A stretch of 64,000 nucleotides of DNA from an uncultured Nitrososphaerales archaeon (GTDB lineage Archaea > Thermoproteota > Nitrososphaeria > Nitrososphaerales > Nitrosocaldaceae), in contig CALHIV010000007.1 of the NCBI GenBank assembly GCA_938030895.1, forward strand, positions 62,001-126,000. Direction: 5' to 3'. Below the pieces are notes generated by a model. That model was not told where the DNA came from. It saw only the letters and a program-made list of their open reading frames with translations, and did no database searches. Below are positions 13,105-63,306 of this stretch, one piece after another. Position numbers and translations under genes: made by a program. How positions within the stretch are numbered: the stretch's first letter is position 1; each line of letters begins with the position of its first letter.

Positions 13105-14484
13105 CTACTCCTTCCATCTTGTTAGGTATGAACCTACGAGTATGAATGCGCCAGTAAGTACTGCTAGTATAGAGGTTGATTGTAATACATTAAGCATGCT
13201 GGATGAGTACATGCTAGCGTGTAAAGCGTCAACAAAGTATGTTAGAGGTAAGACATGTGCTATATTCTGCATATACTCAGGCATGCTATCTAGAGGCCAG
13301 AATACACCTGAGAGGAACATCATGGGGAATGCTAGAGCATTACTTGCACCAGTTACTGCATGAGGCTCCTTCAATGCTCCGGCAATAAGCATACCTAGAC
13401 CTGTGAAGCATAACGCACCTATAGCAAGGACAACTATGCTAATAGCATTCGGAGGAGATGTGTTGAATGCTATCACTGCTATTGATATCATCATTGATGC
13501 AAGTATAAGAGCAAGCACTGTCTGTGTCAGCATATTTGCAACTATCCATTGCGATCTACTCAATGGAGTACTCATCAACCTCTTGAGCATACCCTTCCTC
13601 TTGAACTCTGCTGCTATTCCACTAGTGCCTAGAACACCGTTGGTCATTATGAATGCAGCAAGTACAGCAGGGAGGTAGTAGTTTGCTTTACCTGATACTG
13701 GTTTAATATCGCTAACATCATCCACATCTATAGCAAGTATCTCTGGAGCATCAATTGCACTCTGCTGGAACCTAAGCAGTATACTCATCAATATGCTCTG
13801 TACCTGCTCATGCCCTCTATCCCTGCTAGAGTCTGCTACAAGTAGTAACCTTGGAACTGAGCTATTATAGTTATAGTTATAGTTACCATTCCTAAGAGCA
13901 TCGAGCCTCTTATCTAACCCTTCTCTCCCAGGGACTATTACACCTGATCTTGCATCATTATCATTATAACTATCATTATCAGTATAATTATCATTATCAT
14001 TATCTGTTGGAGACTGCTCTTGCAAGAGATCTAGGGTTGATAACATGACCATCATCCTAGCCTCGATACTCTTAGCCCTTAGCGAAGCATCGAAACCATC
14101 TGGTATCACAAGTACTCTCTTGCTTGAGTGTTTCACATACTCGTCCACATCTACATCTTTAGAGATATGCTTTATGTGAAGTACACTGGATTCTAGTGTA
14201 GTGATAAGGGCATTGGAGAGTTCCGTAGGAGTTCCATCGTTATTAACATCATTATTCTGAATATACAGATCTATATCGTTATCATCTTCAAATACAAGTG
14301 TCAGTATGCTCATGAGCATTATCGGGAAGAGTATTGTAAAGAATACTCCAGTCTTGCTCCTTAACCAGTCAAGTATGAGTGCTCTAGCAAGTGCTATTAC
14401 TGCTCTTGCTGTTACTACTGCTATTGCTATAGATACTACACTATTGTTATTGTTATTGTTATTGTTATTGCTCATCTCCATCAT
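13105..14484 (-). CDS. ABC-2 type transporter permease with Asn/Asp-rich tracts
   Basis: Membrane component of an ABC exporter (drug, lipid or polysaccharide type). One N-terminal helix (about 37-63), a large extracytoplasmic region (65-275) and five or so C-terminal helices (from 282) follow the ABC-2 layout, with FKRKGMLKRLMSTPLSRSQW before the helices. Unusual features are a poly-Asn run near residue 6 and Asp/Asn-rich runs in the external loop, all encoded by microsatellites. It sits 6 bases downstream of its ATPase. Confidence 0.85.
   Translation of the reverse strand: MMEMSNNNNNNNNNSVVSIAIAVVTARAVIALARALILDWLRSKTGVFFTILFPIMLMSILTLVFEDDNDIDLYIQNNDVNNDGTPTELSNALITTLESSVLHIKHISKDVDVDEYVKHSSKRVLVIPDGFDASLRAKSIEARMMVMLSTLDLLQEQSPTDNDNDNYTDNDSYNDNDARSGVIVPGREGLDKRLDALRNGNYNYNYNSSVPRLLLVADSSRDRGHEQVQSILMSILLRFQQSAIDAPEILAIDVDDVSDIKPVSGKANYYLPAVLAAFIMTNGVLGTSGIAAEFKRKGMLKRLMSTPLSRSQWIVANMLTQTVLALILASMMISIAVIAFNTSPPNAISIVVLAIGALCFTGLGMLIAGALKEPHAVTGASNALAFPMMFLSGVFWPLDSMPEYMQNIAHVLPLTYFVDALHASMYSSSMLNVLQSTSILAVLTGAFILVGSYLTRWKE
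14436..14470. repeat. GTTATT microsatellite encoding poly-Asn
   Basis: A run of (attgtt) units inside the permease gene encodes nine consecutive Asn residues near the N-terminus. Copy-number change in threes would lengthen the tract without frameshift. Confidence 0.9.
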
Positions 14485-59789: not shown

Positions 59790-60728
59790 CTACTCTCTAT
59801 ACTCCTCAACATCATACAGGCTTAATCCCTTGCTGCTCTCTGCTATACTCCATCTAGAGCCTATAGGCTTTGTATAGAATGGATAGAGGATGTATGCCAA
59901 TGCAAGCATGAACAAGCCTATAGGATCTGCCATTGCTGCCTTGAGGCCCTCAACCAGCATATCCTTCCTAGATAACCTCATATCCAGCCTATCTATGAAG
60001 TGCTCCAACTCTCTATGCCCAACAACTGCTCTCTTCACCTGCGATATGAACTCCTCTATACTCTCAACAGGCTTGAACCAGACTACAGCATCATCCCTAT
60101 ACCTAACCTGATAGCCCCTCTCAATGGTTATACACTGCATGTATAGGTCTATTGCTATAGTGTTGCTTGGTATCCTAGTTGCCTTTGCTATATTGCTCCT
60201 AACTGCCATAGCTCTACCCATTGCTATGTACTGGTTCATACCTAGAAGCCTAACCCTTCTAAGCCATGAGGAGGTGAATATATCTGCCCTCTCTGCTATA
60301 CTCCATCTCTTATTATAACCTTGCCTGCAATTGCTATTATATAAAGGCAAGGGCATGGGGTTTCCTGCACATAATCCTGCATGCTCATCATCCATGATCG
60401 ATCTTGCTAATAGCATGGTAGTGCATCTTGCAGGTATAACATCTGCATCATAGAGCACTATAACATCGCTCTTACCACTTGCATTAGCAAATATCTCATT
60501 CCATGCACTTGCAGCGCCCCTCCTCTCATCATGATGCATTACAACTATATTCAGCATACTCTTGCATGAGAAGTCTTTGATCATCTCTGGCGTTGCATCG
60601 CTCGAGTCATCTGAGATTATAACCTCTACTATCTCACCAGAGTTAAGATGCTGCATCTCCAGCGCTTTGAGCAGTGCCAGTATGCTATCCTGCTCATTGT
60701 AACTTGGTATACCAACGCTTATCCTCAA
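59790..60728 (-). CDS. Family 2 glycosyltransferase
   Basis: A 312-residue GT-A-fold enzyme. ISVGIPSYNEQDSILALLKAL begins the nucleotide-sugar site, EVIISDDSSDATPE and IVLYDADVIPA (the DxD) follow, and a membrane-proximal C-terminal part (GLFMLALAYILYPFY, about 275-290) suggests lipid-linked or surface glycan synthesis. The start is TTG 60728: a stop codon lies three codons upstream and no ATG or GTG fits. Divergent from tRNA-Tyr. Confidence 0.8.
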   Translation of the reverse strand: MRISVGIPSYNEQDSILALLKALEMQHLNSGEIVEVIISDDSSDATPEMIKDFSCKSMLNIVVMHHDERRGAASAWNEIFANASGKSDVIVLYDADVIPARCTTMLLARSIMDDEHAGLCAGNPMPLPLYNSNCRQGYNKRWSIAERADIFTSSWLRRVRLLGMNQYIAMGRAMAVRSNIAKATRIPSNTIAIDLYMQCITIERGYQVRYRDDAVVWFKPVESIEEFISQVKRAVVGHRELEHFIDRLDMRLSRKDMLVEGLKAAMADPIGLFMLALAYILYPFYTKPIGSRWSIAESSKGLSLYDVEEYRE

Positions 60729-60776
60729 CTCACTTTAAGTATTTAACTAAGGTTACTACTATTAATAGATGCGGGT

Positions 60777-60907
60777 CCCGCGGTAGCTCAGCCTGGTAGA
60801 GCTTCCGGCTGTAGTGGTTGGCCTTATCTGGCTAACCTGTCCAGCCCTACTAGGCAACAGAACCCATAGAGACCGGAGTGTCGGGTGTTCAAATCACCCC
60901 CGCGGGA
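60777..60907 (+). tRNA. trnY: tRNA-Tyr (anticodon GTA) with intron
   Basis: A complete archaeal tRNA-Tyr in 131 bases. The acceptor CCCGCGG (60777-60783) pairs with CCGCGGG (60900-60906) and the discriminator is A60907, with the C1-G72 pair specific to archaeal Tyr. D-arm GCTC...GAGC, anticodon stem TCCGG/CCGGA, anticodon GTA at 60811-60813, T-arm GGGTG...CACCC. An intron at 37/38 is given separately. CCA is not encoded. Confidence 0.96.
60815..60871 (+). other. BHB intron in tRNA-Tyr
   Basis: A 57-base intron between positions 37 and 38. A canonical bulge-helix-bulge is visible: exon CTGT (60809-60812) pairs with intron ATAG (60866-60869) as the 4-bp central helix (one G-U); the bulges are AG|T and AG|A, cut after the second base. 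The inner helix is short and imperfect. Length is above the usual archaeal tRNA intron. Confidence 0.85.
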
Positions 60908-60976
60908 CTATTCTATCTTATGATAGATGGATACTGATGTCTATGGTTAATATATGTAGAATGGGAGGGCTAGCCA

Positions 60977-61034
60977 CAAATACATGCATAAATGCATACA
61001 TACATGCATACATGCATACATGCATACATGCATA
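60977..61034. repeat. TACATGCA 8-base tandem repeat
   Basis: Roughly seven units of catacatg-type sequence, each able to form ATGCAT palindromes, lie between tRNA-Tyr and the EF-2 promoter. Confidence 0.9.
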
Positions 61035-61040
61035 GCAAAG

Positions 61041-61072
61041 AATTAAATACTCTATGGGAAGTGCATTACACA
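61041..61072 (+). promoter_or_regulatory. TATA box of the EF-2 gene
   Basis: AATTAAATAC (61041-61050) is centred 26 bases before ATG 61072. It fixes that upstream ATG as the real start and not the later in-frame ATG 61219. Confidence 0.6.
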
Positions 61073-63306
61073 TGCCTAGATTCAAGACGGTTCAAGAGGC
61101 ATTGAAGATAATAGGGCAGAAGGACCAGATTCGAAAGGTATGGAGTTTGCACTGAGTTTATGCTCCATACCCGAATGATTTTGGTGTCATAGCCCATGTA
61201 GACCATGGCAAGACTACGATGAGTGATAGCCTGCTAGCTGCTACTGGGATGATAAGCCCTAGCGTTGCTGGGGAAGCGCTTGCATTGGATTACTGGGACC
61301 TTGAGCAGCAGAGGCAGATGACCATCAAGGCTGCTAATGTAACGCTCTACTACGAGCATGATAACAGACCATACGTCATAAATATGATAGATACACCAGG
61401 GCATATAGACTTCACAGGAAGGGTCACTAGAAGTCTCAGAGCTATAGATGGTGTATGTGTTGTATGTGACTCAGTGGAAGGGATAATGACACAGACTGAG
61501 ACAGTAACTAGACAGGCGTTGGAGGAGAGGGTTAGGCCAGTGCTCTACATAAACAAGATAGACAGGCTTGTGAAGGAGTTAAGATTAACGCCAGATAAGA
61601 TGCAGGAGTGGCTTGCTAGAATAATAGCAGACTTTAATAGGCTCATCGATATATATGCTGAGCCAGAGTTCAAGGATAAGTGGAAGGTTAGCATCCAGAA
61701 CGATAGTGTTGCGTTTGGTTCAGCAAAGGACAGATGGGGTATAACAGCAAGCATAGCAGCAAAGAAGGGCTTCAAGTTCAAGGATGTATACGATGCATAT
61801 ATGAGCCCAGATGGTGCAAAAGGGCTTGCAGAGAGGGTCCCATTACATGAGGCCATACTAGGCATGGTTGTTAAGCACCATCCTCCTCCTCACGTTGCTC
61901 AGAGGTACAGGATACCAAAGATATGGAAGGGCGATCTGGAGTCTGATGTTGGAAGAGCGCTCCTAGAGTGTGATGAGAATGGTCCAGCGGTGATGATGGT
62001 TACAAATGTTGTTGTTGATCCTCAAGCGGGTCCTGTTGCTGTAGGGAGGCTATACTCTGGAACCATAAGCGATGGTGATCAGGTCTACCTTGTAGGGAGC
62101 AAGAGGACGGAGAGGGTTCAGTCAGTCACCATGTTCATGGGTCCATACAGGGAGATAGTTGGTAGTTTGACAGCAGGTAATATACCTGCGCTTCTAGGTT
62201 TGGAGCATGCTAGGGCTGGGGAGACTATATCAAGCATAAAGGATATAGTACCATTCGAATCGATAAGGTATGTATCAGAGCCAGTGGTTACAGTAGCGAT
62301 AGAACCAAAGCACCCAAAGGACCTACCGAAGCTCGTTGAGGCGCTAAGGAGGATAAGCATAGAGGATCCAAACCTAGTTGTGAAGATAAATGAGGAGACT
62401 GGAGAGATGCTTATGGCTGGGATGGGTGTGCTCCATCTAGAGATAGCAACCACGCTTCTACAGCAGCAAGGGTTAGAGATCGTAACATCTAAACCATTGA
62501 TAAACTACAGGGAATCGATAAGGAGCAAGGCCGGTCCTATAATGGCAAAGTCTCCAAACAGGCATAACAAGGTGTATGTTAGGGTTGAGCCATTGAGCAG
62601 TGATGTTATAGATATGCTTGTAACAGGGAAGATAAACGAGAATATGGATAGGAAGCAGATAGCAGCAGTATTGAGGGAGAAGGGCTGGGATGCTGATGAG
62701 GCCAAGGGTATAGTGGCCATAGAGGGTAGCAATCTCTTCGTTGATGCAACCAAGGGTGTCCAATACCTGCAGGAGTCGATGGACTCTCTACGCTCAGGGT
62801 TCACTGATGTTATGCTCGCTGGCCCACTCGTACAGGAGCAGTGTAGGGGTATCAAGGTTATACTCCACCACTTCGTACCCCACGAAGACCCAGCGCATAG
62901 AACCCTTGCTCAGCTACTCCCAGCAGCAAGGAGAGCGATAATGGGTGCTATGCTGAGCGCTGATCCCGTAATATTAGAACCTATACTTGGTATAGAGATA
63001 AGGTGCCCTGCAGAGATGATAGGTACAGTTGCTGGAGTACTCTCAAGCAAGAGGGGTAAACTGCTCAACATAGACCAGAAGGGTGTGATAGCGATAATTC
63101 AAGGTGAGATACCTGCAGCAGAGACCTCTGACCTCTCAGAGGTTATGAGAGGGGCAACAGCAGGCAAGGCGATGTGGAATACACACTTTAAGATGTGGCA
63201 GGCAGTACCAGCATCACTCACACAGCAGTTGATAGCAGAGATTAGGAAGAGGAAAGGGTTGAGCCCAGAACCGCCAAGGGCAGATGAGTTCATAGACAAG
63301 GAATAA
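61072..63306 (+). CDS. fusA: Translation elongation factor 2, interrupted by a BHB intron
   Basis: Ribosomal translocase GTPase. The coding sequence is two exons, 61072-61135 and 61178-63306, giving 730 residues, the archaeal EF-2 norm. Exon 1 reads MPRFKTVQEALKIIGQKDQI then R; the junction codon is A|AT (Asn); exon 2 continues FGVIAHVDHGKTTMSDSLL with the complete P-loop. The G2-G3 region IDTPGHIDF, NKIDR and the domain IV diphthamide loop HHFVPHEDPAHRT follow. Without splicing the frame hits TGA at 61153, and a start at 61219 would lose the P-loop. Confidence 0.93.
61136..61177 (+). other. Bulge-helix-bulge intron in the EF-2 gene
   Basis: A 42-base insert containing an in-frame TGA (61153-61155). 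Central helix TTCG (61130-61133) with CGAA (61172-61175), 5' bulge AA|A (61134-61136), 3' bulge TG|A (61176-61178), inner 9-bp helix GGTATGGAG (61137-61145) with CTCCATACC (61163-61171), and a 17-base loop. The outer helix CCAGA with TTTTGG is weaker. Cleavage after the second base of each bulge restores QIRNFGVIAHVDHGKTT exactly. Confidence 0.9.

Follow-up and report, generated by a model that had tools for sequence, protein, structure and literature searches.

The window, a 64,000-nucleotide stretch of DNA, corresponds to positions 62001-126000 of contig C7 in the genome of a Nitrosocaldus-like archaeon, which is 1.37 Mb in size and 98.7% complete. The host is a heat-loving, ammonia-oxidising archaeon, with Archaeon HR04, Ca. 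Nitrosocaldus schleperae, and Ca. Nitrosothermus koennekii as its nearest named relatives. The gene for EF-2 was located at 61072-63306 on the forward strand and was interrupted by an insert of 42 nucleotides at 61136-61177, which reads AGGTATGGAG...CCCGAATG and contains an in-frame TGA, at which the unspliced frame from the start codon ATG at 61072 ends. The first exon (61072-61135, 64 nucleotides), as delimited by its translation and conservation, encodes MPRFKTVQEALKIIGQKDQIR and provides the first base of an Asn codon, whereas the second exon (61178-63306), identified by Pfam matches, encodes NFGVIAHVDHGKTT and continues through the rest of the GTPase domain and the later domains to the stop codon. 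The insertion site, here called site A, thus splits the Asn codon as A|AT (phase 1) just 5' of the P-loop.

Removal of the insert in silico at both cut points of a predicted bulge-helix-bulge (BHB) structure yielded a sequence of 2,193 nucleotides and a protein of 730 amino acids with one terminal stop and the junction QIR|NFGVIAHVDHGKTT (ATTCGAA|ATTTTGG in the nucleotide sequence). The preliminary description of a TGA-containing insert in EF-2, and its claim that cutting at the standard points rebuilds the frame, were both borne out by the reading frame and the conserved protein. The rebuilt protein was matched by the Pfam domains GTP_EFTU, EFG_III, EFG_IV, and EFG_C, and an alignment to the EF-2 protein of PDB entry 8hl1 contained no gap at the junction. 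The tryptic peptide NFGVIAHVDHGK of the predicted spliced protein begins with the Asn that is encoded across both exons. A single copy of the EF-2 gene was identified in the host genome, and likewise in the closed genome of a genus-mate.

A TATA-like element, TTAAATA, was located at 61043-61049 on the forward strand, about 23 nucleotides 5' of the ATG, and was also present upstream of the EF-2 genes in the genus-mates; its position suggests that the mRNA may be leaderless or near-leaderless. Further upstream, we noted a gene for tRNA-Tyr with an intron of 57 nucleotides at 60777-60908, which was missed by ARAGORN at default settings, and a tandem repeat of the ATGCATAC type at 60980-61036, between the tRNA gene and the EF-2 promoter, which gave spurious Rfam microRNA matches. 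The intron-bearing tRNA-Tyr gene was located upstream of the EF-2 gene in all six members of the genus, at variable distances, and was not found within the EF-2 flanks fetched from genomes G006 and G007. A link to the EF-2 intron was considered but not adopted, and the tRNA gene is regarded as a neighbour.

Structure of the insert and comparison with related genes

The predicted fold consists of a central helix of 4 base pairs between UUCG in the Ile-Arg codons of exon 1 (61130-61133) and CGAA close to the 3' end of the insert (61172-61175), flanked by two 3-nucleotide bulges at the exon-intron borders. The 5' bulge AA^A (61134-61136) has its predicted cut after 61135 and the 3' bulge UG^A (61176-61178) after 61177. 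The inner helix pairs 61137-61146 with 61162-61171, while the outer helix is short, with either 3 base pairs and a 3' bulge of 3 nucleotides or 5 base pairs (CCAGA/UUUGG) and a 3' bulge of 4 nucleotides. The structure corresponds to the hBHBh' motif, and the central helix and bulges agree with the hBHBh fold proposed previously; the inner stem had been given as 9 base pairs and was found to be 10 (9 Watson-Crick and 1 GU). The minimum free energy had a z-score of -4.9, and none of 200 shuffled sequences folded equally well. A scan of the entire 64 kb for a central helix of 4, an inner helix of at least 9, and at least 4 of 7 outer pairs around an insert of 15-70 nucleotides gave 3 matches on the forward strand and 1 on the reverse, with the EF-2 insert as the top match on the forward strand and the only one that coincides with an interrupted conserved gene. 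Group I or II introns were rejected, since their catalytic core requires hundreds of nucleotides, as compared with the 42 observed here, and no Rfam intron family was identified in 60500-61400. An intein was rejected because of the short length of 42 nucleotides and the stop codon.

Several hundred genomes were searched, and insertion sites were determined in the EF-2 loci retrieved from them. This identified 54 distinct inserts of 16-63 nucleotides, all of which restored the conserved protein when removed at a BHB-type structure by cuts between bulge positions 2 and 3, as in the window gene. Four sites within about 10 codons were occupied, with 37 distinct insert sequences at site A, 12 at site B, 1 at site C, and 4 at site D. 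All six genus members and a family-mate carry an insert at site A, which splits the Asn codon ahead of FGVIAHVDHG, and site A is also occupied in families f2, f11, f12, f17, and f18; the insert in genus-mate G001 has 37 nucleotides. In families f3 and f4, the inserts were located one base later, and their central helix (CAGG/CCUG) was unrelated. The P-loop Lys codon is interrupted at site B (f6, f10, f14, and f43) and the Asp codon of HVDHG at site C (f10), while the inserts at site D follow AH and precede VDHG (f32). The preliminary description had proposed a search for the same insert in related genomes, and inserts at this site were indeed found, spread over many families and also over other classes. 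An assembly error was rejected because inserts of different sequence and length were present at the same site in every genus- and family-mate examined.

Outside the class, a covariance model, built without the five introns from f3 and f4 that were misregistered by MAFFT, retrieved inserts from 12 genomes; every match was in EF-2 and every protein was restored. One additional intron from outside the class (L367) was found by a protein search, and one (L329) was identical in sequence to the intron of Bathyarchaeota archaeon B24 (L166). At least two deep lineages of archaea contain such predicted EF-2 introns, and the site used in the window gene is itself occupied in other classes, Bathyarchaeota archaeon B24 included. 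The shortest, of only 16 nucleotides at site A in the Nitrosothermus genome G006 (L013), is very short for a BHB intron, and three others (L115, L118, and L396) had weaker, relaxed structures. Most insert lengths were not multiples of 3 (25 of the 37 in the first-found set). Such lengths would be intolerable in the protein, which implies that the inserts are removed at the RNA level or skipped by the ribosome.

Covariation provided further evidence for the fold. Introns with their own arms formed 199 contiguous inner pairs, as compared with 53 when the arms were swapped between species, and none of 5,000 swaps was as good. In a set of 17 site-A sequences, both sides varied in 7 of the 14 pairs, and the covariation score was 0.311 versus 0.139 for shuffled alignments and no more than 0.116 when the register was slid. 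Of the 25 distinct introns at site A, 23 had the bulge AA^A. Furthermore, the Arg codon before the site was CGA in 20 of 25 intron-bearing genes as compared with 14 of 113 intronless genes, a preference that may be explained by the central helix, the pairing of which would require CGA.

A second gene with an intron and the splicing machinery

The closed genome of genus-mate G001 (1.577 Mb) was scanned for BHB structures capable of reconnecting two reading frames. The genes for EF-2 and aIF5A ranked clearly above all other candidates, and no other convincing protein-coding BHB intron was identified among the 99 relaxed candidates. One of these, in a gene resembling glycyl-tRNA synthetase, was rejected as a probable chance match, since the start of the gene itself seems to lie inside the putative intron. 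It was also noted that contig C1 of G001 contains candidate non-canonical introns on the reverse strand in the genes for tRNA-Ala(GGC), near position 7 (at about 746278), and for tRNA-Lys(CTT), in the D-loop (at 1381503).

The predicted aIF5A intron in G001 (949929-949960, 32 nucleotides; L297) splits the codon for the hypusine lysine (SKPG-K-HGSAKARVV), and the same codon is split by an intron of 35 nucleotides in the host genome (contig C4, about 13117-13151; L304). The intron was present in all sampled genomes of families f1 and f2, with lengths of 17-40 nucleotides, the shortest being that of G006 (L321). Three genomes from other classes, G416, G423, and G444, likewise had inserts in this Lys codon, although the BHB structure in G444 was weak. 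Judging from three genes only, including cbf5, archaeal protein-gene BHB introns tend to split codons for functional residues in genes for translation and RNA modification.

The host genome contains genes for both an endonuclease and an RNA ligase: two paralogues of the PF01974 splicing endonuclease (C4:76293 and C14:11639) and one RtcB (C4:72119). The two paralogues would fit a hetero-oligomeric EndA of broad specificity, a subunit type that is read from the paralogue count only. The intronless relatives examined likewise had two endonuclease genes, so the distribution of the introns cannot be accounted for by enzyme type alone.

Interpretation of the insert and rival explanations

Based on these comparisons, we conclude that 61136-61177 is very probably a BHB pre-mRNA intron that would be spliced out in the cell. 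In the EF-2 transcript, UUCG of exon 1 would pair with CGAA at the 3' end of the intron, the archaeal splicing endonuclease would cut behind the second base of each 3-nucleotide bulge, and RtcB or another archaeal ligase would join the exons. This would rebuild the Asn codon A|AT before the P-loop to yield full-length EF-2, and all functional EF-2 would come from spliced mRNA. The earlier proposal that the intron is removed by the tRNA machinery is thereby strongly supported by the same-site introns, frame-breaking lengths, covarying helices, and intact proteins, and further by the single EF-2 copy, the two EndA paralogues, and RtcB. The intron of aIF5A and those at the remaining EF-2 sites of the relatives would be accounted for in the same way.

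Known translational bypassing elements have a stable hairpin between coding parts, and the hairpin in EF-2 is similarly placed, which would be compatible with a ribosome that bypasses the insert or shifts frame on an unspliced RNA. We consider this very improbable, since no matched pair of take-off and landing codons restores the correct frame (from the repeated CGA, reading would continue with ATG ATT TTG rather than AAT TTT GGT), and since the inserts of 16-63 nucleotides, with any remainder modulo 3, are spread over four EF-2 sites and are found in a second gene as well. Moreover, bypassing needs neither a central helix between exon and intron nor BHB-type bulges, yet both are always present. 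That the gene is simply broken, with a functional EF-2 starting at the downstream ATG at 61219 or encoded elsewhere in the genome, is hardly credible. The frame from 61219 is open for 695 amino acids, but this form lacks the P-loop and matches GTP_EFTU from profile position 20 rather than 2, there is a single EF-2 gene in the host and in its closed genus-mate, and exon 1 is conserved in all relatives. A functional start elsewhere, as raised in the preliminary description, gained no support.

A spliced intron could in addition serve as a switch, with retention lowering EF-2 synthesis when tRNA splicing is limiting, as implied by the earlier suggestion of a control point. Both clear cases in the scanned genome are translation factors, and splicing would tie both EF-2 and aIF5A to the tRNA endonuclease. 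We nevertheless regard a switch as unlikely, since large lineages lack the intron, the intron in cbf5 has no known function (PMC7714728), and the loop varies freely in sequence and length (16-63 nucleotides), such that the splice structure alone is conserved; the suggestion of a control point gained no support.

Relation to known introns and evolution

According to a survey of EndA substrates from 2020, cbf5 is the only archaeal gene known to have a BHB intron in its coding sequence (PMC7714728), in agreement with the earlier statement that such introns are rare. Previously, Yokobori (2009) had reported no confirmed pre-mRNA splicing beyond cbf5, although other putative introns were predicted (PMC2738675). 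No reports of introns in EF-2 or aIF5A were found in the open-access library searched. Like the cbf5 introns of Desulfurococcales and Sulfolobales (Watanabe 2002; Yokobori 2009, PMC2738675), the EF-2 introns are short and lie inside a coding gene (in phase 1 in the window gene), have a predicted cut between bases 2 and 3 of the bulge, would be linked to EndA, and seem to show lineage-specific losses; a codon for a functional residue is also split in cbf5, namely that of the catalytic Asp (PMC2738675). They differ in gene and lineage, in occupying four sites rather than one, in being as short as 16 nucleotides, and in being known from the genes alone. The distribution of the EF-2 introns is unusually rich. 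The BHB intron of HVO_1309 in Haloferax volcanii, newly reported in the 2020 survey, is likewise in an mRNA substrate of EndA but is located in the 5' UTR, outside the coding region (PMC7714728). The BHB introns of archaeal tRNAs and rRNAs share the motif and presumably the enzymes, whereas the substrate here would be an mRNA.

An origin from tRNA introns was also considered, as the context of site A is T-loop-like and that of the aIF5A site D-loop-like. This gained no support, as the exon context was no more tRNA-like than random coding sequence: the best 12-mer matches to tRNAs were 8/12 for site A and 10/12 for aIF5A, and 231 of 3,000 random coding 12-mers (about 8%) reached at least 10.

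In a tree of 94 EF-2 sequences, inferred without the insert region from a sample enriched for introns, intron presence changed at least 11 times, with 7 changes for site A and 7 for site B, and gains were not separable from losses. Genus g11 contained closely similar EF-2 genes with an intron at site B, at site C, or with none, indicating that turnover continues. The EF-2 proteins of other lineages (G010 and families f19 and f20; intein loci L057/L113, L105, L107, L111, L121, and L122) contain inteins at GK|TT. Those in G010, f19, and f20 end directly before the TT of GKTT, where site B lies, and the two tested contained LAGLIDADG and splicing domains. Such inteins, of which the window gene has none, are removed from the protein rather than from the RNA. 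Different kinds of insertion, as predicted from the genes, are thus seen to converge on the P-loop of EF-2. One tentative scenario, which we consider possible rather than probable, combines an old pre-mRNA intron in the EF-2 gene of the common ancestor of the Bathyarchaeota-type lineages and Nitrososphaeria with active, repeated insertion, for example by reverse splicing followed by conversion, into codons for functional residues, such as the P-loop Lys and HVDHG in EF-2, the hypusine Lys in aIF5A, and the catalytic Asp in cbf5.

EF-2 is a standard marker gene, and ordinary annotation would lose the N-terminus with the P-loop or call a frameshift in these lineages. With four intron sites, the P-loop inteins, and the second intron gene aIF5A, comparisons can be used to test how archaeal pre-mRNA introns are gained and lost, and since relatives of Nitrosocaldus are culturable, a direct RNA test is feasible. 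For the organism itself, it appears that the gene for the essential EF-2 can be read only after the tRNA splicing machinery has acted, and essential translation factors would thus have been made dependent on the enzymes of tRNA splicing.
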